DNA from: Spirochaeta sp.
GTDB taxonomy: Bacteria; Spirochaetota; Spirochaetia; DSM-2461
Direction: 5' to 3'
NCBI GenBank assembly: GCA_030635565.1
Contig: DAOVYP010000022.1
Location: forward strand, 1 to 14,068
DNA length: 14,068 nt
Each line of letters opens with the position of its first letter. The stretch's first letter is position 1. This document shows positions 1,850 to 12,402 of this stretch, piece by piece. A program made the position numbers and the translations under genes. Below the pieces are notes generated by a model. It saw only the letters and a program-made list of their open reading frames with translations. It was not told where the DNA came from and did not search any database.

Positions 1850-2269
1850 TTAACTATTAACCTTTTTCACCTCAAAGCGGCATGTTCTATCACCGGTTCC
1901 CCAGCAATCTACTTCTTTGACAATAAATTTTTCCCCCGTGTATTCCTCAAAAATACCTGCGAGAAAGCCTTCATCATAATTGCACACGGACTCACCGAAT
2001 ATCGGCAATCCGGAGCAATCAAGATCTTCAGATACGGTCAATGTATATTCCAGTTTCTCATCATCAGCTTTCTCAACCCTGAGTATTCCAACTTTCAGGG
2101 CGACAAGTTTTTATTTTAAGTCTGCAATAAAGTCATTGAATGGAAGTTTGGTATCAAGAACATTGATACAAAACTCTTTACCGGCAAGGTTACCTGCTTT
2201 GACAAATAACTCCATTGTTCTCTGCTTGCCGATCTCTTTCGAGAAGACATCTTTGAAAGTAAACTCCAT
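1850..2269 (-). pseudogene. V4R (4-vinyl reductase-like) domain protein interrupted by one in-frame TAA
   Basis: Reading the minus strand from ATG 2269-2267 gives an N-terminal segment MEFTFKDVF to FIADLK, then TAA (2113-2111). The same frame then resumes with KLVALKVGILRVEKA and runs to the true stop at 1850. The distal part carries the hallmark V4R motifs: ECxDCSGLP-like SEDLDCSGLP, a 'VCNYDEGFLAGIFE' block, and CWGTGDRTCRFEV at the end. V4R domains are small sensory or ligand-binding modules. Total length without the stop would be 139 residues, normal for a stand-alone V4R protein. No bases are lost or gained around the stop, so this is a substitution, not a frameshift. A TTG at 2041 could start only a 63-residue fragment. 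The gene is the natural first gene of an operon with the diguanylate cyclase. It could be a real nonsense mutation or a sequencing error. Confidence 0.72.
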
Positions 2270-2450
2270 AAGCCGATAGACAATTACCGAAGTTTCTTAC
2301 GTTCGCGGTTGGAATGGATATCGAGTTCGCCGGGCCCGTTACCTGTGTTTCGGGTTCACCATGGACAAAGCCCAGTTCGTCACCGGCGAGCCCAAGCTCC
2401 AGAGGAGCAATTTTTTCAAATCTCTTTGCAATATCGTTTGCCGTGTACAT
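2190..2450 (-). pseudogene. Truncated NIF3-like gene (N-terminal ~39 codons only)
   Basis: From ATG 2450-2448, preceded at good spacing by AAGGA, the minus strand encodes MYTANDIAKRFEKIAPLELG, then an AGDELGFVHGEPETQVTG segment. This matches the N-terminal signature of the NIF3/YbgI dinuclear-metal protein family (APLxLA, then D-x-x-G-x-x-x-G-x-P-E-x-x-V). NIF3 proteins are about 250-370 residues; here recognisable homology stops near 2334. The frame then runs on as unrelated sequence to a stop at 2190, overlapping the start of the V4R gene in another frame by about 80 bases. I read it as the remnant left by a deletion whose right edge lies just upstream of V4R. An in-frame extension upstream to 2477 exists but lacks a ribosome site. 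No C-terminal NIF3 part is visible nearby. The family call rests on a short stretch. Confidence 0.45.
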
Positions 2451-2477
2451 TTTTTCCTTATTGAACCACAAGTTCAT

Positions 2478-2717
2478 GATATCCTGTTCAGCTCTCTGCT
2501 GTTGAATTCAAATATTTTATCTCTGTGATCATCAGGGGCAGCATTACCCATGTAAAAAACAGGCATAGAACACTTTGCTTTTTCTATATTTCGGTGTCCT
2601 TGATCAAAATTTGGAGGGGTTGACTGTGACTCTTCAAACTCAAATGCCCCGTAAATGGATATCCCGCAGTAACAGCATCGCTTTTCACGTATCTCCGACC
2701 CACCTATACTGTTTCCC
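2478..2717. other. AT-rich intergenic stretch upstream of hisA, no recognised gene
   Basis: About 240 bases between the NIF3-like remnant and hisA. A minus-strand frame is open from 2794 down to 2474, ending in TGA overlapping the ATG at 2477. It runs through the hisA 5' end, has no recognisable motif and no convincing start, so I do not call it a gene. The stretch shares the low GC of the 540-2700 segment. Its right end contains the hisA promoter. Confidence 0.5.
2682..2710 (+). promoter_or_regulatory. Sigma-70-type promoter of hisA, predicted leaderless
   Basis: TTTTCA (2682-2687) and TATACT (2705-2710) are separated by exactly 17 bases. The -35 matches TTGACA at four of six positions and the -10 matches TATAAT at five of six. 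Transcription would start near 2717-2718, on the A of the hisA ATG, and no Shine-Dalgarno precedes that ATG. Found by eye; not tested. Confidence 0.5.
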
Positions 2718-3446
2718 ATGATCGCCATACCTGCAATCGACCTCATTGACGGACGTTGTGTCCGACTCACCGAAGGGATCTTCGATACCGCCAAAGTTTA
2801 TGATGAAGATCCGGTCTCGGTGGCCCGGGGTTTTGCCGAAGCCGGCGCCGAGCGTCTTCATGTTGTTGATCTGGATGCCGCCCGGGGCTCGGGCGGCAAC
2901 CGGGATTCCATCAGGGCCGTTCGGAAGGTCTTTCCCGGTATTATGGATGTGGGCGGAGGAGTGCGCAGTCTGGATGATGCCCTTACCCTGCGGGATATCG
3001 GTATCGATCTCCTGGTTGTGGGTACCGCACTGGTCCGCCGGCCTGAGGATGTGTCCGCCTGGGCCGCCAGGCTCGGTCCGGTGTTCGCTGCCGGCATCGA
3101 CGCCCTGGAGGGAGAGGTGAAAGTGTCAGGCTGGGAAGCCGGTTCATCGATCAGGGCTTCCGATCTGGCTGTACAGGCCCGGGATCTGGGTGTCGTGGAA
3201 ATCATATACACCGACATTTCCCGGGACGGAACCCTTTCCGGACCGAATGTCCCTGAGACCGTCGTGCTTGCCGCAGCTTCCGGCCTGCCGGTGATAATTT
3301 CAGGCGGAGTGGGAAATATGGCTCACCTCGAATCTCTTGCGTCTGATCCTCCTGCGGGAGTTTCCGGGGTAATTTTCGGCAAGGCACTCTATGAAGGCCG
3401 GATTAATCTCAAAGAAGCCATCCGATTATTGGGAGGTGCCGAATGA
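2718..3446 (+). CDS. hisA: HisA, phosphoribosylformimino-5-aminoimidazole carboxamide ribotide isomerase
   Basis: A 242-residue (beta/alpha)8 enzyme of histidine synthesis that isomerises ProFAR to PRFAR by an Amadori rearrangement. The N-terminus MIAIPAIDLIDGRCVRL is the typical HisA opening, with catalytic Asp8. The second catalytic Asp is Asp128 in AGIDALEGEVKVSGW. Phosphate-binding glycine motifs are seen in VGGGVRS and ISGGVGN, and YTDISRDGT (Asp166, Asp170) is the usual HisA block. Length is normal. The start is fixed by homology, since the motif begins at residue 2. No ribosome-binding site precedes it, and a well-formed promoter places the transcript start at the ATG. Its TGA overlaps the hisIE ATG by four bases (ATGA), so the two are co-translated. 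No other his genes are in the window. Confidence 0.96.
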   Translation: MIAIPAIDLIDGRCVRLTEGIFDTAKVYDEDPVSVARGFAEAGAERLHVVDLDAARGSGGNRDSIRAVRKVFPGIMDVGGGVRSLDDALTLRDIGIDLLVVGTALVRRPEDVSAWAARLGPVFAAGIDALEGEVKVSGWEAGSSIRASDLAVQARDLGVVEIIYTDISRDGTLSGPNVPETVVLAAASGLPVIISGGVGNMAHLESLASDPPAGVSGVIFGKALYEGRINLKEAIRLLGGAE

Positions 3447-4048
3447 GTGCCATATCGAAAGATCCGGCCTGGCCGGTCATCGTTCGTATCGACGGAGAGC
3501 CGGCATCGGCGGCCATGATGAACCGCAAGGCCTTCCGAAAGAGCATCGAAACCGGTGTTCCCTGGATCGTGCATCCGGAAACCGGCCGGGTTCTGCCCTG
3601 GCCCGGGGATACTCGAACAGTTTCATTGAACGAGGCTCCGGGACGTTATGAATTGAGCCTACCAGCAGCAGCCGTCACCGATCCATACGGAGCCGATACA
3701 CCTCCTGATGTTGATCCCGACGACAGGTTGAGTATGGACGACACCCGGGTGCCGGAAAACGGGGGAGTGAAAGCGGACGGCATCATGGAGAGCCTGTCGG
3801 TTCTTATCGCCGAAAGACGGCGGACCATGCCCGAGGGATCCTATACCACGTATCTCTTTGAAAAGGGGCTGGACAAAATCCGAAAGAAAACCGGGGAAGA
3901 GGCGATAGAACTGCTCCTGGCCCGGGATGATAAAGATCTGGTTTACGAGTCAGCCGACCTCATCTATCACCTGCTGGTGCTGCTTGAAGCCTCAGGGTTG
4001 AACTGGTTTGAGGTTACAGGGGAACTTACGCGCCGGTACGGCGAATAG
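3443..4048 (+). CDS. hisIE: HisIE-type protein: intact HisE (PRA-ATP pyrophosphatase) with degenerate HisI half
   Basis: A 201-residue protein built like bifunctional HisIE. The C-terminal half (about 112-200) is an intact HisE domain that hydrolyses phosphoribosyl-ATP to phosphoribosyl-AMP. Seen there are MESLSVLIAERR, the metal-binding helix KKTGEEAIELLLA and YESADLIYHLLVLLEASGL. The N-terminal half aligns with the first part of HisI: AAMMNRKAFRKSIETG resembles the family's 'LMLAYMNxEALxKTLETG'. It then loses the W-S-R-S-R and L-W-x-K-G-E-T-S-G blocks, the Asp-rich metal site (DCDxD) and CHTGxxSCF. The whole protein contains no cysteine, so the zinc site of PRA-AMP cyclohydrolase cannot form. 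An Asp/Pro-rich linker (about 78-110) joins the halves. ATG 3443 has GGGAGG upstream. The 3' end overlaps the convergent 148-residue gene by 23 bases. Confidence 0.88.
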   Translation: MSAISKDPAWPVIVRIDGEPASAAMMNRKAFRKSIETGVPWIVHPETGRVLPWPGDTRTVSLNEAPGRYELSLPAAAVTDPYGADTPPDVDPDDRLSMDDTRVPENGGVKADGIMESLSVLIAERRRTMPEGSYTTYLFEKGLDKIRKKTGEEAIELLLARDDKDLVYESADLIYHLLVLLEASGLNWFEVTGELTRRYGE

Positions 4049-4517: not shown

Positions 4518-5726
4518 CTAGGACTTCTGCTTGTTGGAAACGACGTCGATGTAAACGGCAATGATGAGGACCATACCCTTGACGATGTATTGCCAGAATA
4601 TATCCATGTTCATGACGCTCATTCCGTTTACGATGCTGGCCATGATGAGGGAGCCCACCATCGCGCCGATGATGGTACCCTTGCCTCCCATGAGGCTGGT
4701 GCCGCCGATGACGCAGGAAGCAATGGTTTCCAGCTCGTAATTCTGACCGGCATTCACCGTACCCGCAGCCACGTATCCGGTGAGGATGATACCCGCCACG
4801 CCGGAGAGAACTCCCATGAGCACGTGTACCAGGAATATCGTCTTCTTGATGTTGATGCCCGAGAGCCTTGTGGCCTCCAGGTTGCCGCCCACCGCGTAGG
4901 CATATCGGCCGAATCGGGTGTTGGTGGATATGTAGGAAATGAGAAGGGCTACGCCCGCGAGGATGAGCACGGGAATCTGAATGCCCCGGTAACGGTTCAT
5001 GATAAAGACATAGAGCACGACGATGCCGGAAATAATGGTGGCTTTGAGCACGTCTTTCCACATGGCGGAAATCTCGAAACCGTAGTTCTTCTTCTGATTC
5101 CGACCGATAATCGTCGTGAAATAGATGACACCGACGACGATGAGAGCGATGATCCAGCCGAACCCGTTTGAGACGTAACCCTGGGCGATTGACACCAGGC
5201 TGCTCTCCATCGGTGAGATTGTTTTTCCCTGGGTGACGCCCAGGACGCCCCCGCGGAATATCTGCATGCCCCCCAGGGTGACGATGAAAGCCGGTATCTT
5301 CAGATAGGCGATGAGCGATCCCTGCCAAACCCCGATAATGGCCGCCAGAATCAAGACGGCGATGATGGTGAAAATCGTCGACATGATGCCATGACCTGCC
5401 GCTTCCATACTCGGGAAGATTCTGGGCATGAGTTCGTAAAACACTTTAACCTGAAGGAAAGCCGTCACGGCGCTCAGAAAACCCACAACGGAACCGACGG
5501 AGAGATCGATGTTTCCAAGGACGATCACCAGCACCATGCCGGTAGCCAGGAAGGAGATGATGGATGCCTGGCGGAACAGGTTGGAGATGTTCCGGGGCTT
5601 GAGAAAAATGCCGTCGGTAAGGACCCAGAACAATGCCCAGATGAGGGCCAGGGCAATAAGGACCGTATAATCTTTGAGGCCGTGCCTTATTTTTTTCAGC
5701 AGGGCCGAATTCTGTTCAGTTAACAT
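4518..5726 (-). CDS. xylH: Xylose-type sugar ABC transporter permease
   Basis: A 402-residue inner-membrane permease of the branched-chain/simple-sugar family, closest in layout to XylH and GguB. It would form the channel of the XylFGH importer, probably as a homodimer. About ten or eleven hydrophobic segments are visible, starting at YTVLIALALIWALFWVLTDG. Family motifs are NISNLFRQASII, MVLVIVLGNIDLSVGSVVG near the N-terminus, IPAFIVTLGGMQIFRGG, and the C-terminal block IGGTSLMGGKGTIIGAMVGS. The segment GGNLEATRLSGINIKK between late helices is the conserved cytoplasmic loop that contacts the ATPase in this family. ATG 5726 has AGGAG upstream, and it starts 15 bases after xylG. The substrate is inferred from XylF. 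The reading frame is intact. Confidence 0.92.
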   Translation of the reverse strand: MLTEQNSALLKKIRHGLKDYTVLIALALIWALFWVLTDGIFLKPRNISNLFRQASIISFLATGMVLVIVLGNIDLSVGSVVGFLSAVTAFLQVKVFYELMPRIFPSMEAAGHGIMSTIFTIIAVLILAAIIGVWQGSLIAYLKIPAFIVTLGGMQIFRGGVLGVTQGKTISPMESSLVSIAQGYVSNGFGWIIALIVVGVIYFTTIIGRNQKKNYGFEISAMWKDVLKATIISGIVVLYVFIMNRYRGIQIPVLILAGVALLISYISTNTRFGRYAYAVGGNLEATRLSGINIKKTIFLVHVLMGVLSGVAGIILTGYVAAGTVNAGQNYELETIASCVIGGTSLMGGKGTIIGAMVGSLIMASIVNGMSVMNMDIFWQYIVKGMVLIIAVYIDVVSNKQKS

Positions 5727-5741
5727 TATTGATTCACTCCT

Positions 5742-7271
5742 TCAGGCCGCCGCCGTGGCCAGGGCCATAATTTTTTCCTGTGTGGCTTCGTCTACCGGCA
5801 GAATTCCCGTAGAACGGCCTTCACACATCACCATGATGCGATCGCTCATACCCAGAACTTCCTCAAGCTCGGACGAGATCATGACAATGGACACGCCCCG
5901 TTCCACGAGATCGTTCATCAGCTTGTAGATCTCATATTTGGCACCCACATCAATACCCCGGGTGGGGTCGTCGAGTATGAGGATGTCGGGCTCGGTCATC
6001 AGCCATTTGGATATCACAACCTTCTGCTGGTTGCCGCCGGAAAGTTTCTCCACGGGAACCAGGAGATTCGGTGCCTTGATGCGAAGACTCTTTGCGAATT
6101 TCCGGCTTTCGTGAAGCTCCTTATTCTTGTCGATCCGCATGAAGCTTGAGAATCTCTGCATGCTCGGCAGGGATATATTTTTTAAAACCGACTGTTCCAG
6201 GATGAGCCCCAGGGTTTTCCTGTCCTCGGGTACCAGCCCGATGCTGTTGTTCATTGCGTCCCGGGCGGAGCGGATGTCGATGTCTCTGCCGTTGAGGGTA
6301 ATCCGGCCGCCGACCTGTTTGCCCAGCTCGCCGAACAGGGAGGTGACAAGCTCTGTTCTTCCCGAACCCATCAGGCCGGCGATACCGAGAATCTCTCCCT
6401 TCTTGAGATCGAAGGAGACCTTTTCAATAAGGGTTTTGTCCATGTGTTCCGTACTGAGTACTTTGTAATCCCTGACGGAGAAAATAGGCTCACCGATTTC
6501 CACAGAACGTGAGGGAAAGCGTTCGGTCATTTCCCGTCCCACCATCATGGTGATGAGCTTATCGGTATCGGTTTCCGCAGTCGGTATGGTATCGACATGA
6601 CGTCCGTCCCGAAAAACGGTCACCGTATCGGTGATCTGAAAGAACTCCTCCAGTTTATGAGAAATGTAGAGGCAGGTAACTCCCTTCTCCTTGAGGGTTC
6701 TCAGGATGGCATGGAGCATCTTCACTTCGAATTCGCTTAGAGCCGAAGTGGGCTCATCGAGAATGAGTACCTTGGCGTCTTCGCTCAGGGCCTTGGCAAT
6801 CTCCACCATCTGCTGCTTGCCTACCCCCAGATTCCCGACAGTTTCAGCGAACGGAATATCCAGGCCGTAAGTGTCGAGAAGCTTTTTTGTTTTGCTGTAC
6901 AGGCTGTTCCAGTTGATGACATCGCCGAATCGAACCGGCTCACGCCCGAGATAGATATTTTCCCCGACAGTGGAAAAGGCATTAAGCGCCAGTTCCTGGT
7001 ATACGATGGAAACTCCGTGCTCGATAGCCTGTCGGATGGCGCCTTTTTCGAATTTGATTTCTTCGCCGTCCATCAGGATCTTGCCGGTGTAGGTATCATG
7101 GGGATACACACCGGAGAGTATTTTCATCAAGGTGGATTTCCCGGCACCGTTCTCTCCGCAAATACCGTGAATTTCACCGCGTTTGACGTTGAAACTCACG
7201 TCGGACAGAGCCACGACTCCGGGAAATTCCTTGGTGACATTATCTATTTCGAGAATGTAGTCATCGGACAT
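5742..7271 (-). CDS. xylG: Xylose-type sugar ABC transporter ATP-binding protein (two ATPase domains)
   Basis: A 509-residue tandem ATPase of the RbsA/MglA/XylG family that powers the permease from the cytoplasmic face. Domain 1 (about 5-245) has Walker A GENGAGKST (39-47), Q-loop Gln92, signature LGVGKQQ (148-154), Walker B VLILDEPTSAL (Asp172, Glu173) and H-loop His205. Domain 2 (about 260-505) has the usual degenerate P-loop GLMGSGRT, with Arg in place of the lysine (Arg305). It also has an intact LSGGNQQ signature (410-416) and Walker B ILILDDPTRGID, in which the catalytic Glu position is Asp435. The degenerate second P-loop is normal for this family. ATG 7271 follows GAGGA. It lies 107 bases after xylF, behind a terminator-like hairpin, and 15 bases before xylH. 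Domain 1 is a full-length relative of the N-terminal domain of the histidine kinase at 10047. Confidence 0.94.
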   Translation of the reverse strand: MSDDYILEIDNVTKEFPGVVALSDVSFNVKRGEIHGICGENGAGKSTLMKILSGVYPHDTYTGKILMDGEEIKFEKGAIRQAIEHGVSIVYQELALNAFSTVGENIYLGREPVRFGDVINWNSLYSKTKKLLDTYGLDIPFAETVGNLGVGKQQMVEIAKALSEDAKVLILDEPTSALSEFEVKMLHAILRTLKEKGVTCLYISHKLEEFFQITDTVTVFRDGRHVDTIPTAETDTDKLITMMVGREMTERFPSRSVEIGEPIFSVRDYKVLSTEHMDKTLIEKVSFDLKKGEILGIAGLMGSGRTELVTSLFGELGKQVGGRITLNGRDIDIRSARDAMNNSIGLVPEDRKTLGLILEQSVLKNISLPSMQRFSSFMRIDKNKELHESRKFAKSLRIKAPNLLVPVEKLSGGNQQKVVISKWLMTEPDILILDDPTRGIDVGAKYEIYKLMNDLVERGVSIVMISSELEEVLGMSDRIMVMCEGRSTGILPVDEATQEKIMALATAAA

Positions 7272-7378: not shown

Positions 7379-8455
7379 CTACGGGCGAGGAGGCCGATCA
7401 GCTTCGGGAATGTCCCGGTAAACCTCATCGTAAGGCTGGAAGCCGGTAAGGATAACCTCTTCATACACGTTACTGGCATCAACCTGGACAACGTCGAGGA
7501 ACAGACAGGGGACGGAACCCTTGAGAGAATCGTCCAGAGTCAGTTCAGCGAGGGTGAAACTGGTCAGGCCGGAGACGGTTTCGCCCTTAGCCAGGGCAAC
7601 AGCCATATCCATAGCCATGGGGGAGAGTTTCCGGACATCTTTGAAGACAGTCATGGTGAGCTCGCCTTCAACGATGGACTTGCAACCCGCAAGGGTAGCG
7701 TCCTGACCTGAGATAGGTACCTTGCCTGCCAGACCCTGGGCTTTCATGGCTTGAAGAGCACCGAGAGCGGTACCGTCATTGGATGCTACGATAGCGTCGA
7801 CGTTGTTACCCTGAGCGGTGAGAATGTTCTCCATGTTTTTAAGGGCATTTGCGGGATCCCAGTTCTCGACCCACTGATCGGCAACGATCGTAACCTTGCC
7901 GGCATCGACAAGTTTCTGAACAACTTCCATCTGGCCCTGGCGGAACAGAGTTGCGTTGTTGTCGGTGGGACTTCCGCCGAGCATGACGAAATTGCCGCTG
8001 TCAACGACTGCGGTGACACCGCGGCCCTGGGCCCGGCCGACTTCGACATTGTCGAAGGACAGGTAGGCGGACAGGTTGGCGGATTTGATCAGGCGGTCGT
8101 AAGCGATGGTGGGAATGCCTTCGGCTGCTGCCGCGTCAACGGCGGAAGCTGCTGCATCTCCATCCTGAGCGATGATAATTAGGACATCGGCACCCTGGAG
8201 AATCATGTTTTCGATCTGGTCGTTCTGCAGCTTGGGGTCCTGGTTGGCGACCTGAGTGATCACCTGGACTCCGGCTTTCTGGCCGAGTTCGGTCAGCAGA
8301 GCGGCCTCACGGGGCCAGCGGTCGGTGGAGTAGTCCGAGAATGACACACCGACGACGATGGTATCGTCAGCCGATACCGCACCGGAGTCGCCACTGGCGA
8401 ATGCCATGGTGCCGATGAGAGATACGATAAGAGCGAGTAAGAGAAAGCGCTTCAT
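7379..8455 (-). CDS. xylF: D-xylose-binding periplasmic protein
   Basis: A 358-residue periplasmic sugar-binding protein with many motifs of E. coli XylF. These include the AYDRLI and YLSFDN regions, GGSPTDNNATLFRQGQM, DQWVENWDPANALKNMEN, VASNDGTALGALQAM, GKVPISGQDATLAG and MTVFK. D-xylose is therefore the best-supported ligand, though ChvE-like relatives bind several aldoses. The signal peptide is MKRFLLLALIV then SLIGTMAFA, with likely cleavage after Ala20. There is no lipobox cysteine, so it should be soluble in the periplasm. I chose ATG 8455, not the in-frame upstream codon at 8503, because AAGGAGG (8467-8461) sits five bases before it and the signal peptide begins there. The sigma-54 promoter, with its predicted start near 8476, also lies just upstream. 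It is the first gene of xylFGH and is divergent from the response regulator. Confidence 0.95.
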   Translation of the reverse strand: MKRFLLLALIVSLIGTMAFASGDSGAVSADDTIVVGVSFSDYSTDRWPREAALLTELGQKAGVQVITQVANQDPKLQNDQIENMILQGADVLIIIAQDGDAAASAVDAAAAEGIPTIAYDRLIKSANLSAYLSFDNVEVGRAQGRGVTAVVDSGNFVMLGGSPTDNNATLFRQGQMEVVQKLVDAGKVTIVADQWVENWDPANALKNMENILTAQGNNVDAIVASNDGTALGALQAMKAQGLAGKVPISGQDATLAGCKSIVEGELTMTVFKDVRKLSPMAMDMAVALAKGETVSGLTSFTLAELTLDDSLKGSVPCLFLDVVQVDASNVYEEVILTGFQPYDEVYRDIPEADRPPRP

Positions 8456-8724: not shown

Positions 8725-10044
8725 ATGATCTATAAAATACTGATCGTTGACGATGAGCTTGAAATGTGCCTTTCCCTGGCGGAATTGCTCGAATCCCACG
8801 GATACCGGGCGGAATATGCCACCGGAACCCGGGATGCCGGTATCGCTCTGGAAAAAGGGCGGTTTGATCTGATTCTTCTTGATATCCGTATGCCTGACGG
8901 CAATGGTGTTGATTTCCTGAATGTCATAAAAGACCGGGACCGATCAATTCCCGTCATTATGGTGAGTGCCTTTGCCTCTGTAGAGAATGTCGTGAAAGCC
9001 ATGAAATACGGGGCGGTTAATTTCTATTCCAAACCAATCGACATGCCGGCTCTTCTGGAAGAAATCGAACGGATTACCTCCGGGAGTTTTAACAGTGACG
9101 ATACAATCGGAGGATTGGTAACCCTGACCCGGACCCCGAGTATGGAAAGTCTGTTCATCCTGATTGAAAAGGCCGCACCCACCGATGCCCCTGTCATCAT
9201 TACCGGAGAAAGCGGCACAGGTAAGGAAATGGCGGCCAACACCGTCCATGCCTACAGTCCGAAGAAGGATGCACCTTTCATCAAACTGAACTGTGCCGCC
9301 ATTCCTGAAGCCTTGATGGAAAGCGAATTGTTCGGTCATGAGCGCGGGGCATTTACCGATGCCCGGGAACGGCGCAAGGGGAAATTTGAACAAGCCAAGG
9401 GAGGTACCATTTTTTTCGATGAAATCGGAGACATGAATATCGGGACCCAGGCTAAAATACTCCGCGTCCTGCAGGAGAAGGAATTCGAGAGGCTGGGAGG
9501 TTCGGAGACCATTTCCGCGGATGTGAGGGTTCTGGCGGCTACGAACAAGAATCTTCGGGAAATGGTAAAACATGGAAGCTTCAGGGAAGATCTGTACTAT
9601 CGATTGTCGGTAATCACAATCGAGCTTCCGCCGTTGAGGGATCGCCCCGGGGACCTTCCGGTCCTGACGGAGTTTTTCATAGAGCGCTTCAACAAGCGCT
9701 ATAACAAGAACATCAAGGGAATCAGTGAGATAACCCGCCGTTTGTTTTCCTCCCATGACTGGCCGGGGAATATCCGTGAGTTGAAAAACTGTATTGAACG
9801 TGCGGTGATATTCTGTGACGGGGACTGTATCGATCTTTCGGACTTGCCCAAACAATATGCGGAAGTGGATCTGGAGCGGAGTTTCGTCGGCCGAAGTCTG
9901 GATGATGCCACCGACAATATCACCAGAGAGCTGATACAGGATGCTCTGGACCGGTCGAGTGGTCAGAAACAGCAGGCCGCCGAAATTCTCAATATCCATC
10001 GAAAAACCCTGTACAACAAAATGAAAAAACTGGGTATGAACTGA
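8725..10044 (+). CDS. NtrC-family sigma-54-dependent response regulator
   Basis: A 439-residue cytoplasmic transcription activator. It has a receiver domain (about 1-118, acidic pair Asp9/Asp10, phospho-acceptor Asp53 in LLDIRMPDG, Lys103 in YSKP) and an AAA+ sigma-54 interaction domain (about 129-365). The AAA+ domain shows Walker A GESGTGKE (161-168), ESELFGHERGAFTDA with the sigma-54 loop at 208-213, and Walker B GGTIFFDE (Asp232, Glu233). Arginine-rich YYRLSVITIELPPLRDR and WPGNIRELKN follow. It ends in a Fis-type helix-turn-helix (QQAAEILNIHRKTLYNKMKK). The loop reads GAFTDA, not GAFTGA. The start is certain: the preceding in-frame codon is a stop and the receiver motif begins at once. 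The kinase gene follows after two bases. It likely binds the twin dyads at 8598-8647 and activates the sigma-54 promoter of xylF. Confidence 0.95.
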   Translation: MIYKILIVDDELEMCLSLAELLESHGYRAEYATGTRDAGIALEKGRFDLILLDIRMPDGNGVDFLNVIKDRDRSIPVIMVSAFASVENVVKAMKYGAVNFYSKPIDMPALLEEIERITSGSFNSDDTIGGLVTLTRTPSMESLFILIEKAAPTDAPVIITGESGTGKEMAANTVHAYSPKKDAPFIKLNCAAIPEALMESELFGHERGAFTDARERRKGKFEQAKGGTIFFDEIGDMNIGTQAKILRVLQEKEFERLGGSETISADVRVLAATNKNLREMVKHGSFREDLYYRLSVITIELPPLRDRPGDLPVLTEFFIERFNKRYNKNIKGISEITRRLFSSHDWPGNIRELKNCIERAVIFCDGDCIDLSDLPKQYAEVDLERSFVGRSLDDATDNITRELIQDALDRSSGQKQQAAEILNIHRKTLYNKMKKLGMN

Positions 10045-10046
10045 CA

Positions 10047-11891
10047 ATGGCGGACACCACGCTGCTGCAGATGCGGAACATCCATTATTCCTATGGGGGT
10101 TATCAGGCACTGCGCGGCGTGGATCTTGACATTCGCTCTGGAGAAATTCATGCCCTGGTAGGCGAGCATCGGGCGGGTAAGAGCACTCTGATGCGAATTC
10201 TCGGTGGAAACCTGGTCCCTCAGCGGGGAGATATCGTCCTGAAAGGCCGTTCCGTGCAGTTCTACTCTCCTCAGGATGCCATGTCCCGGGGCATCGGTAT
10301 GGTGTATCAGAGCATTATGGTGATTCCCTCGCTCAACGCCATTGAGAACATATATTCCGGGCGGATGCCCGGTGCCTGGCTGGGATACAGGCGATACGGC
10401 CACATGCTCACCGAAAGCCGGAAGCTCCTGAAAGAACTCGGGCAGGAGTTTGATCTTCTCACACCCCTTTCGGAATTGTCGGTAGCTCAGCAGCAGATGG
10501 TGGAAGTCGCCCGCATCCTCGCCATATCACCGGACATCCTCATCCTGGATGAAATATCCAACCGTATGAAAGACGAGGAACTGGTTCATCTTTTCCGGAT
10601 ATTGGAGGATTTCCGGAAAGCCGGAAAATCCATCATTTATATTACCCAGAATTTCGATGAAATATTCGAATTAGCCGACAGAGTGACGGTACTGCAGGAC
10701 GGGTACCGTAAAAGTACCGAAACTGTAGCCGAACTGGACCGGATGCGTCTGTATCGTCTGGCATTCGATGCCGTCCTGGAAACTCCGGGAACCCAGAGCC
10801 GGGGTGTTCCGGAGGAAGAACGGCAGCTGCTGGCCTTGAGGCGTTACAGCCACAGTCTGATTGAAGACCTGCCGGTGGGTGTGATGATCTTCGATCGGGA
10901 AGGGATGGTTTATCAGGCCAATCATTCCGCCGCCGGGATACTCGAAACCGAGCCTTCATTTCTCATCGGCAGGACGCTTGGAGATTTCTCTCTGTCGGAA
11001 GACCGGCTCATCAATGATGAAATCCGGACGACCCTTTCCAACCGCGGCAAAGGTGCCTGGGAGGGGGTTTCCATCGGCAGGGCCAAGTTCGTCAAGGCGA
11101 GAATCCTTCCCCTCCACGATGAGGATTTCAGCTATCTGGGCGCCCTTCTCACCCTGGAGGATGCATCATTAAGTGCTTCGGTGAAGGAATACCTCACCGA
11201 GGCCGAAAAGCACCAATACACCGCGGAGCTCGCCGCGGGGGTCGCCCACGAGGTCAACAATCCCCTGGGTATTATCAATAATTATCTCGAGCTCCTGAAG
11301 CTCAAGGAGCGGGACGACGATGACCTGATAAAACTGGATAAAATTCAGAAGGAAATCAGAAGAATTACCGAAATTGTCGGCAGCCTTCTGAGTTTCAGCC
11401 GTTTACCCCGGAAAAACGAGGCCGTGGTGAGTCTGGTGGAATTACTGGATGAAGTGCTTCTTCTCCTGGGACACCGATTCGCCGAAAAGAGGATCAAGTT
11501 GGAAAAACGATTCCAGACGGATCCCGCTTTGACTAAGGGGGATGAAAATCGGCTCAAGCAGGTGTTCATCAACTTGTTGATGAACAGCCTTGAAGCCGTT
11601 CTGGACGAAGGCCGTATCGCAGTGGATATTTCAAAAGCCGGAGAATTCCTGCGGGTGAGGGTGTCGGACAATGGACACGGGATTCCACTGGACCTTGAGG
11701 AGTCGGTCTTTCAGCCCTTCTTTACCACCAAGCTGACAAAAACCAATACCGGTCTGGGGCTTTCCATCTGCGATCACATCATCAAGGCTCATGGCGGGAC
11801 CCTCTCGTATGAAAGTACCCCGGGAGAATGGACCAGTTTTGACGTTTTGCTGCCCCGGACATCTCGACCCTCAGCGCAGGAGCGCGTATGA
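10047..11891 (+). CDS. Soluble hybrid sensor: sugar-ABC-ATPase-like domain fused to PAS and histidine kinase
   Basis: A 614-residue protein with no signal peptide or membrane helix. Residues 1-240 are a complete ABC ATPase domain of the RbsA/MglA/XylG type. They show Walker A GEHRAGKST (39-47, Lys45 kept), Q-loop Gln88 in GMVYQS, signature LSVAQQQ (144-150, Gly to Ala) and Walker B ILILDEISN (Asp168, Glu169, P-T of the D-loop region lost). At the H-loop, YITQNFDEIFELADRVTVLQDG has Gln201 where His is normal. A PAS domain follows (about 268-375), then HisKA with AGVAHEVNNPLG (phospho-acceptor His401). The HATPase has N-box NLLMNS (Asn513), DNGHG (541-545) and TGLGLSI (568-574). It starts two bases after the regulator, so it is translationally coupled. 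It is the cognate kinase of that regulator and probably senses the XylFGH transporter or nucleotide state. The domain calls are firm; the signal is inferred. Confidence 0.95.
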   Translation: MADTTLLQMRNIHYSYGGYQALRGVDLDIRSGEIHALVGEHRAGKSTLMRILGGNLVPQRGDIVLKGRSVQFYSPQDAMSRGIGMVYQSIMVIPSLNAIENIYSGRMPGAWLGYRRYGHMLTESRKLLKELGQEFDLLTPLSELSVAQQQMVEVARILAISPDILILDEISNRMKDEELVHLFRILEDFRKAGKSIIYITQNFDEIFELADRVTVLQDGYRKSTETVAELDRMRLYRLAFDAVLETPGTQSRGVPEEERQLLALRRYSHSLIEDLPVGVMIFDREGMVYQANHSAAGILETEPSFLIGRTLGDFSLSEDRLINDEIRTTLSNRGKGAWEGVSIGRAKFVKARILPLHDEDFSYLGALLTLEDASLSASVKEYLTEAEKHQYTAELAAGVAHEVNNPLGIINNYLELLKLKERDDDDLIKLDKIQKEIRRITEIVGSLLSFSRLPRKNEAVVSLVELLDEVLLLLGHRFAEKRIKLEKRFQTDPALTKGDENRLKQVFINLLMNSLEAVLDEGRIAVDISKAGEFLRVRVSDNGHGIPLDLEESVFQPFFTTKLTKTNTGLGLSICDHIIKAHGGTLSYESTPGEWTSFDVLLPRTSRPSAQERV

Positions 11892-11901
11892 TAGGCCCGG
11901 T

Positions 11902-12402
11902 ATGGATATCAACGGAATAGTTATTTCTGAATGGATTGCCAAACTCGGCATCTGGCCCCTCATCGTTCTTCTCGTCCCCAATCTCATGTTCCGCCGCTAT
12001 GGTCAGTCCGCCGGCAAGAAACGCATGTCCTCCCTCTTTCAGGCCATCGCAGTTTTCCTGATTACCACCATGGCCGCATTCATTGTGGAGCGGGAACTCA
12101 GTGACAAATATCTGTTTATCGGTATTGCCGCCGTCGCCGTGCTGCTTTATGTGTTCCGGGAACGAGTGTTTCCCTACAGGCTTTCCTGTATTGAATGTGA
12201 TGCGCGCCTGGATTTTAAAACAATATATTTCATGGATGACAACCTGTGTACCGACTGTCATTCGAAAAAAGTCGCCAGGGAAGAAGCCGCGGAGGAGAAA
12301 GTTGCGGAATCGGCAAATGAAGGGAATTCTGAAGAAACCGAAAGCGATGAAATCAGTAGTGACGAAACGCCTCAAATCGAATCTGAAGACGGTGACGATT
12401 AA
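11902..12402 (+). CDS. Small membrane protein with four-cysteine zinc-ribbon-like motif and acidic tail
   Basis: Not a family I can name. Predicted length is 166 residues from ATG 11902, chosen because the open frame extends upstream only as a shadow of the kinase gene and the hydrophobic part begins here; the ribosome site is weak. Three hydrophobic segments (about 13-30, 45-62, 70-86) are followed by C-I-E-C (Cys96, Cys99) and C-T-D-C (Cys116, Cys119). That is the spacing of a small zinc ribbon or rubredoxin-like metal knuckle. The last 40 residues are strongly acidic (about 18 Glu/Asp) and probably disordered. It starts 10 bases after the kinase stop on the same strand, so it could be the third gene of the two-component operon. 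Its relevance to sugar sensing is unknown. It converges on gltA with 37 bases between and no clear terminator. Confidence 0.78.
   Translation: MDINGIVISEWIAKLGIWPLIVLLVPNLMFRRYGQSAGKKRMSSLFQAIAVFLITTMAAFIVERELSDKYLFIGIAAVAVLLYVFRERVFPYRLSCIECDARLDFKTIYFMDDNLCTDCHSKKVAREEAAEEKVAESANEGNSEETESDEISSDETPQIESEDGDD

Follow-up and report, generated by a model that had tools for sequence, protein, structure and literature searches.

The kinase ABC-HK and its domain architecture

The stretch of DNA analysed here (the window: 14,068 nucleotides of Spirochaeta sp. contig DAOVYP010000022.1) encodes at 10047..11891(+) a histidine kinase whose N-terminal part is an ATP-binding cassette (ABC) ATPase domain of the type that drives sugar importers. 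We refer to this protein as ABC-HK. A first-pass annotation of the window had read a transporter-type ATPase domain, a PAS domain and a HisKA/HATPase core in a single frame, and this reading holds: the gene is one intact open reading frame (ORF) of 614 residues, its ATG begins 2 nt past the stop codon of an NtrC-type regulator, and Pfam finds ABC_tran (residues 22-170, E 3.3e-25), PAS (PF00989, residues 270-372, 10854..11162, E 4.5e-6), HisKA (PF00512, residues 394-453, 11226..11405, E 5.6e-12) and HATPase_c (PF02518, residues 498-605, 11538..11861, E 3.1e-25) in that order, each above its curated cut-off. The nucleotide-binding domain (NBD, residues 1-240, 10047..10766) is nearest, over residues 3-235, to the first half of the AraG/YtfR/RbsA/AlsA/MglA/XylG ATPases in NCBIfam, with scores far under cut-offs that were set for complete proteins, as is to be expected of a half. 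These ATPases, whose class carries the label CUT2, contain two NBDs in one chain, referred to below as the N1 (N-terminal) and N2 halves.

For comparison we collected 85 ABC-HK gene regions, some of them close relatives; three further loci (L165, L166 and L215), in which contig ends cut the kinase, were excluded, and a few of the 85 kinases are truncated at a contig end or by a stop (L147, L155 and L219 among them). The proposed phospho-acceptor, His401 (11247-11249), lies within the sequence AHEVNNPL and is a histidine in all 85 relatives, and the ATP-lid glycines of the G1 and G2 boxes (G543, G569 and G571) are present in 83, the remaining two being gapped. ABC-HK contains no segment of membrane strength, as had been noted earlier (maximum Kyte-Doolittle-19 value 1.41, threshold 1.6); among the relatives, 10/85 have a stretch at or above 1.6. 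An AlphaFold2 model (mean predicted local distance difference test score 74, predicted template-modelling score 0.42) shows folded NBD, PAS and catalytic domains, with residues 231-268 and 375-401 poorly placed, and in Foldseek one half resembles ABC ATPases and the other PAS/LOV histidine kinases.

The fusion recurs across genomes

The combination of an ABC ATPase domain, PAS and HisKA/HATPase is not confined to the window. In a large protein collection, ABC_tran and HATPase_c occur together in 119 of the 120 best matches listed, the exception (P0012) being a 438-residue piece identical to the window's own ABC-HK; a second search, seeded with a member labelled Acidobacteria, again returned both halves in 119 of 120 best matches (exception P0216). 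Homologues are thus not always two separate genes, one of the two outcomes on which the first-pass annotation had made its proposal depend. The other, a frameshift or stop between the halves, was not found either: relatives at 93% and 81% identity run full length with no stop within the match, and in a relative at 84% identity the sole TAA falls after its 611-residue ORF. These three relatives rule out a private frameshift or assembly fusion. Counting the window's own genome in every survey, matches occur in 15/41 relatives (E 1e-90), 12/26 genomes of the same family (1e-75), at least 57/394 genomes of the same class (1e-60) and at least 11/392 genomes of an even phylum sample (1e-90), the last two being lower bounds as three candidates were scored per genome. 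Nearly all genome matches extend end to end, a few being cut by contig ends, and in the class survey they reach down to ~26% identity. Some genomes hold several copies (four in G016, three in G024), and the class matches include five single-contig genomes (G011, G031, G088, G402 and G516).

A contig scan with two short patterns returned 80 loci, of which only L031-L035 and L048 matched from the NBD to the HATPase domain; the rest are mostly plain kinases or ATPases. Complete fusions in this set include records labelled KSB3 (L035) and Acidobacteria (L048), and L031, L032 and L034 were omitted from our counts as their gene layout matches that of L155, L206 and L230. ABC-HK proteins bear names such as 'AtoS', 'PAS domain S-box-containing protein' and 'ATP-binding cassette domain-containing protein'. 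Some database names join the kinase and the ABC ATPase, so annotation pipelines have already met the combination.

The NBD keeps an ATP-binding half-site and has lost much of its signature

Motifs were compared among 85 kinase NBDs, 68 transporter N1 domains and 68 transporter N2 domains; the kinases were divided by score into clades A (46) and B (39), an automatic two-clade split that only isolated the outlier L227 being left unused. The elements that contact ATP are nearly invariant in the kinases. Walker A (GEHRAGKS in the window, residues 39-46, 10161..10184) has Lys45 in all 84 sequences with a letter at that position, the Q-loop Gln88 (10308..10310) is kept in 84/85, and Walker B (ILILDE, residues 164-169, 10536..10553) has Asp168 in 85/85 and Glu169 in 79/85. 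The signature motif is degenerate (LSVAQQQ in the window, residues 144-150, 10476..10496): Ser145 is present in 26/85 and glycine at 147, the second glycine of the motif, in 6/85. The H-loop histidine is retained in 51/85 kinase NBDs (17/46 in clade A, 34/39 in clade B), compared with 68/68 N1 domains, and is Gln201 in the window (10647..10649). The proline after Walker B, present in 67/68 N1 domains, is replaced in most kinase NBDs. The window's domain had been described as a full RbsA/MglA/XylG-type NBD; as a catalytic domain it is incomplete, with Gln201 at the H-loop position, LSVAQQ as the signature and SNRM as the D-loop. His41 of Walker A is found in 71/85 kinase NBDs. Clade A typically has GE-His-Arg where transporter N1 has GE-Asn-Gly (Arg42 in 39/46), and clade B mostly has His-Gly (Gly42 in 37/39; Arg42 in 0/39 among the letters listed).

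The two halves of the transporter ATPases provide the relevant yardstick. N1 retains Walker A, Walker B, the Q-loop and the histidine, with a weak signature and a D-loop Asp in only 6/68. In N2, LSGGNQQ and the D-loop Asp are present in 68/68 and the Walker A Lys in 6/68, and the letters listed include no H-loop His. The available text of a study of RbsA/NupO likewise describes one degenerate site (PMC11466899). The kinase NBD resembles the N1 half-site, and is predicted from its motifs to bind ATP and to be poor at clamping the ATP of a partner, so a canonical closed NBD homodimer is unlikely. As a whole, the domain is conserved to the same degree as its transporter counterparts (Jensen-Shannon divergence, JSD, 0.52 and 0.49 in the kinases, 0.50 and 0.49 in the transporter NBDs). 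Residues 229-239 are more conserved in the kinases (JSD 0.59/0.62) than in N1 (0.41), in keeping with a role as a signal-transmitting joint.

Kinase, regulator and importer form a conserved module

In the window, ABC-HK follows an NtrC-type response regulator (8725..10044(+); REC, sigma-54 AAA+ and Fis-type helix-turn-helix domains by Pfam). Divergently from this pair run genes for a XylF-like periplasmic binding protein (7379..8455(-); Pfam Peripla_BP_4; NCBIfam xylF 341.8 bits, cut-off 389.55), a XylG-like two-NBD ATPase (5742..7271(-); two ABC_tran stretches; NCBIfam PRK13549 662.6 bits, cut-off 699) and a XylH/GguB-like permease of the BPD_transp_2 type (4518..5726(-); Pfam PF02653; NCBIfam GguB 335.6 bits, cut-off 450). 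'Xylose' here denotes likeness and not an assignment, because all three transporter proteins score below their NCBIfam cut-offs.

This arrangement is general. Among 62 loci with at least 4.5 kb of upstream and 1 kb of downstream sequence, an NtrC-type regulator lies directly upstream of ABC-HK in 61, a two-NBD RbsA-type ATPase lies within 9 kb in 59 (greatest distance 4.9 kb), a BPD_transp_2-type permease is nearby in 59 (60 by profile) and a binding protein in 60; all three transporter parts are found in 56. Several of the absences are misses of the length cut-off: the only ATPase ORFs at L144 and L190 are short (L144 also lacks the regulator), and the permease was missed at L164 and L217 and the binding protein at L152. 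Wherever a regulator is present, it is co-oriented with the kinase (78/78 loci), and the gap, overlaps included, is at most 100 nt in 77. As controls we used 29 regions around REC-bearing regulators, drawn from 70 regulator matches in six genomes with NBD-kinase loci excluded. Within 8 kb, these contain a two-NBD ATPase in 3/29 cases, a permease in 4/29 and an ordinary kinase in 25/29, so that the linkage to ABC-HK is highly significant for the ATPase (59/62 against 3/29, Fisher p 3e-16) and for the permease (60/62 by profile against 4/29, p 5e-16). Permeases of the BPD_transp_1 type outnumber those of the BPD_transp_2 type in 10/10 genomes (34 vs 12 in G000, 43 vs 10 in G031); they were found beside 0/62 ABC-HK loci and also beside 0/29 controls, in a search whose 14 queries matched little beyond themselves.

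The class of the importer is constant and its likely substrate is not. The partners, sampled through 10 binding proteins and 8 ATPases, extend from xylose/arabinose-like importers to those of the Bmp type; the binding proteins are mostly sugar-type Peripla_BP_4, with Bmp-type proteins (PF02608) at L224 and L240 that we take to indicate nucleoside-like substrates, and a single one of the 8 ATPases, that of L035, passes an NCBIfam cut-off, namely that of AraG. A reading confined to XylH-type partners is accordingly too narrow, and partners have seemingly been exchanged over time. At L263, L266 and L269, ordinary kinase-regulator pairs that lack an NBD also lie near two-NBD ATPases, and may be alternative sensors for the same transporter class.

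A sigma-54 promoter probably links the regulator to the importer genes

For each of 58 loci we recorded the best match to TGGCAC-N5-TTGCW in a segment from 300 bp ahead of the first start listed for the divergent transporter operon to 60 bp past it. Matches with at most one mismatch occur in 41/58 (8 perfect); 20 dinucleotide shuffles yield 0.25 on average and never more than 1, and the opposite strand yields 1/58; with two mismatches allowed the count is 50/58 against 4.75 in shuffles. As the loci are related, these 58 are not independent events. The putative promoter in the window (TGGCACAATATTTGTA, 8502-8487(-)) has the form TGGCAC-N5-TTGTA, with one mismatch, and lies 31 bp upstream of the likely xylF ATG at 8455, a start read from the sequence and preceded by AAAAGGAGG; one further one-mismatch site occurs in the window, at 1122(-). 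RpoN is encoded in 11/11 genomes tested. The regulators have the phospho-acceptor Asp53 and Lys103 in 78/78 cases and the GA(F/Y)T(G/D/N)A loop nearly throughout (columns G 77, T 77 and G/D/N 78 of 78). Taken together, the promoter matches, RpoN and the regulator residues indicate that the NtrC-type regulator very probably activates the operon next to it.

Descent of the NBD and divergence of the module

A quick tree built from 109 domains places 51 NBDs of kinases together with 26 N1 domains of transporters and apart from 26 N2 domains (support 96 in the SH-like approximate likelihood-ratio test). With support 93, the kinase NBDs form a single group, disturbed by one faulty outgroup row, L014_OUT, which has a branch length of 10, falls among them and was ignored; its match lies on the minus strand and was probably read from the wrong one. 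Judged by this tree and the NCBIfam comparison, the NBD of ABC-HK appears to share descent with the N1 half of RbsA-type ATPases, as its sister or nested within it. Across 63 loci, the distances of the NBD, the kinase core and the regulator inter-correlate strongly (Spearman 0.83-0.89), and those of the same three with the ATPase, permease and binding protein correlate at only 0.17-0.26, values that are weak but above chance (Mantel p 0.002-0.004). Kinase and regulator therefore seem to have travelled together, while their transporter partners were exchanged within one class.

A soluble kinase that may sense the state of its importer

We read the architecture, the joint divergence of kinase and regulator, the linkage to one transporter class, the sigma-54-like sites and the motif pattern, all of them direct results of computation, as traces of a soluble kinase that senses the state of an RbsA-class importer through its N1-like NBD and sets the expression of that importer; we put the probability of this reading at roughly 55%. 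Here, the N-terminal half of an RbsA-type ATPase, the half that binds ATP, would have been copied and captured as the input module. The NBD would bind ATP and use its retained Q-loop face to dock on an RbsA/CUT2-class permease from the cytoplasm, or else join the transporter's ATPase. Occupancy or working state of the importer would alter the geometry of the NBD, this change would pass through the conserved tail of the NBD and through PAS to HisKA, and the phosphorylated NtrC-type regulator would fire the sigma-54 promoter ahead of the divergent transporter genes. The importer would thereby set its own level, the direction of the response being conjectural.

The restriction to the RbsA class, together with the kinship of the NBD to that very class, is best explained if the domain needs something that RbsA-class importers offer, either the cytoplasmic loop of the permease or the N2 half of the ATPase. 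Substrate types differ across the loci while the transporter class stays, in keeping with this. In ABC transporters the Q-loop glutamine faces the permease, and the Q-loop region (residues 88-106) is as conserved in clade A kinases (JSD 0.57) as in N1 (0.58). On the permease side, the GGN..A..LSGI region, presumably the coupling loop, is among the most conserved parts of the 69 neighbouring permeases. As the transporter keeps its own two-NBD ATPase in 59/62 loci, the kinase NBD is not its motor, and we rejected that role. A more specific version, held only tentatively, is that the kinase dimer plugs its two N1-like domains into the two docking sites of the permease dimer, replacing the motor; what is ordinarily a binding-protein-dependent importer would then act as a transmembrane receptor. 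The docking loop is shared throughout the RbsA class, so that a single family of kinases could change partners and thereby serve many substrates. The earlier proposal that the coupling is built into the kinase agrees with the presence of an importer-type ATPase domain, linked to one transporter class, inside a kinase that has no membrane sensor.

Several results weigh against contact with the importer, and some of them favour another account, rather unlikely in our estimate, in which the NBD alone reads cytosolic ATP/ADP, touches no transporter and governs the importer merely as a target, so that uptake would be matched to energy charge. Walker A and B residues are near-invariant while the signature and H-loop decay, as expected of such an energy sensor. 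The NBD does not co-diverge with the permease more than the kinase does: across the 63 loci, the NBD-permease correlation is 0.18 and the kinase-permease correlation 0.17, compared with 0.56 for ATPase and permease, and although the first exceeds chance (Mantel p 0.002), so does the second (0.004). Covariation with the permease loop over 58 paired loci exceeds that of random re-pairing but is equally unspecific (z 9.5 for the NBD, 8.5 for the kinase, 11.6 for the regulator) and is not evidence for contact, because the kinase and regulator controls score alike; the NBD groove gives z 7.1 with the loop and 6.1 with the rest of the permease, which we do not count as a result. Clade B shows lower conservation of the Q-loop region (JSD 0.49), and the Glu that follows the Q-loop Gln in 62/68 N1 domains is lost in the kinase NBDs. 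Finally, the pair at L238 (9118-10932) has no RbsA-class transporter within 9 kb and faces two alcohol dehydrogenases, a glycyl-radical enzyme and a radical-SAM protein (L238:12406-17891), with a perfect sigma-54 match at L238:12407, the start of the dehydrogenase operon. What a pure energy sensor leaves unexplained is the near-constant RbsA-class neighbour, the NBD's own kin, maintained in genomes where BPD_transp_1 permeases are the more numerous.

Contact with the ATPase could instead take the form of a swap, in which the kinase NBD substitutes for N1 as the partner of N2 in XylG; the intact LSGGNQQ of N2 would clamp the kinase-bound ATP, and free or idle XylG would be what is sensed. The halves are indeed complementary, a kinase ATP half-site with a poor signature (Ser in 26/85) facing an N2 with the signature in 68/68 and the Walker A Lys in 6/68, and one degenerate RbsA/NupO site is described in the available text of PMC11466899; N1 would nevertheless have to be displaced, because N1 and N2 share one chain, and the NBD and ATPase trees correlate at only 0.26, which makes this pairing quite improbable. 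That the NBD is an inert leftover or a scaffold has still less to recommend it. Its catalytic residues are partly lost, and PAS domains commonly act as sensors, so that the PAS domain might be the real one; against this, Lys45, Gln88 and Asp168 persist in relatives down to ~26% identity, and the domain as a whole is as well conserved as the transporter NBDs. An isolated gene fusion or assembly artefact, in favour of which there is only the draft, fragmented state of many contigs, is refuted by the single-contig genomes, the spread through the class and the fusions in KSB3 and Acidobacteria records, and merits practically no credence.

Relation to known systems

Relative to the AtoS/ZraS kinases with AtoC/NtrC regulators, ABC-HK has the same PAS-HisKA-HATPase core and sigma-54 regulator, and differs in carrying an ABC domain where the usual sensor part stands. 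Relative to the RbsA/XylG/AraG ATPases, with whose N1 half its NBD groups, it has a single NBD fused to a kinase in place of two asymmetric fused NBDs, and it has lost the signature and the post-Walker-B Pro, and often the H-loop His. BceS is membrane-bound, whereas ABC-HK has no segment of membrane strength. The available text of PMC6978683 describes BceS-BceAB and PhoR-PhoU-PstSCAB as kinases coupled to ABC transporters by separate proteins. The likeness to the former is that the state of an ABC transporter governs a histidine kinase regulating the transporter's own genes, and to the latter that a kinase with no canonical periplasmic sensor reads an ABC importer; in the same source, BceS has no ATPase domain and PhoR is coupled via PhoU and PstB, whereas ABC-HK carries the ATPase domain itself. 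XylFII-LytS, as presented in the accessible part of PMC6321045, is likewise a sensor kinase fed by a xylose signal, but there a sensor domain of the kinase, of a kind absent from ABC-HK, reads the binding protein. Another proposed evolutionary link between transporters and kinases, outlined in the available portion of PMC11109136, is the fold shared by 5TMR kinases and transporter S-components; it concerns a membrane-embedded subunit and not a cytosolic ATPase. RbsA-type transporters are termed 'type II importers' in the accessible text of PMC11466899.

In the accessible parts of the open-access literature we found no description of a histidine kinase with an ABC ATPase domain, in agreement with the first-pass annotation, nor of a kinase that gauges energy charge by an ABC domain, and the available text of a census of bacterial signalling proteins (PMC1183210) holds nothing on ABC domains in kinases. 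Our analysis extends the earlier proposal with a conserved kinase-regulator-importer module, a probable sigma-54 output and a likely descent of the NBD near N1. Reporting from importer to gene control is known for a few systems, where it proceeds by the touching of separate proteins; in ABC-HK the coupling part would lie inside the kinase, and the arrangement is found repeatedly in one bacterial class, next to importers whose substrates differ. If contact with the importer is real, the signal of each locus would be the substrate of the importer next to it. This would help in finding ligands for many sensor kinases that have none assigned, and exchanging the importer might redirect the kinase. 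If the NBD is an ATP sensor instead, ABC-HK would be a kinase that gauges energy charge with an ABC domain.

Other features of the window

Putative HisA-like and HisIE-like genes (2718-4048(+)) adjoin the sugar locus. Immediately upstream of a PAS-GGDEF gene (555-1847), pieces of what seems to be one small protein, presumably V4R-like, lie in three minus-strand frames (1850-2507(-)), which looks like a decayed gene or sequencing errors. The kinase is followed by a small gene (11905-12402(+)) with a weak match to DUF7564 (22.4 bits, cut-off 32.2), which also adjoins the kinase in the same-genus relatives L139, L140 and L141.

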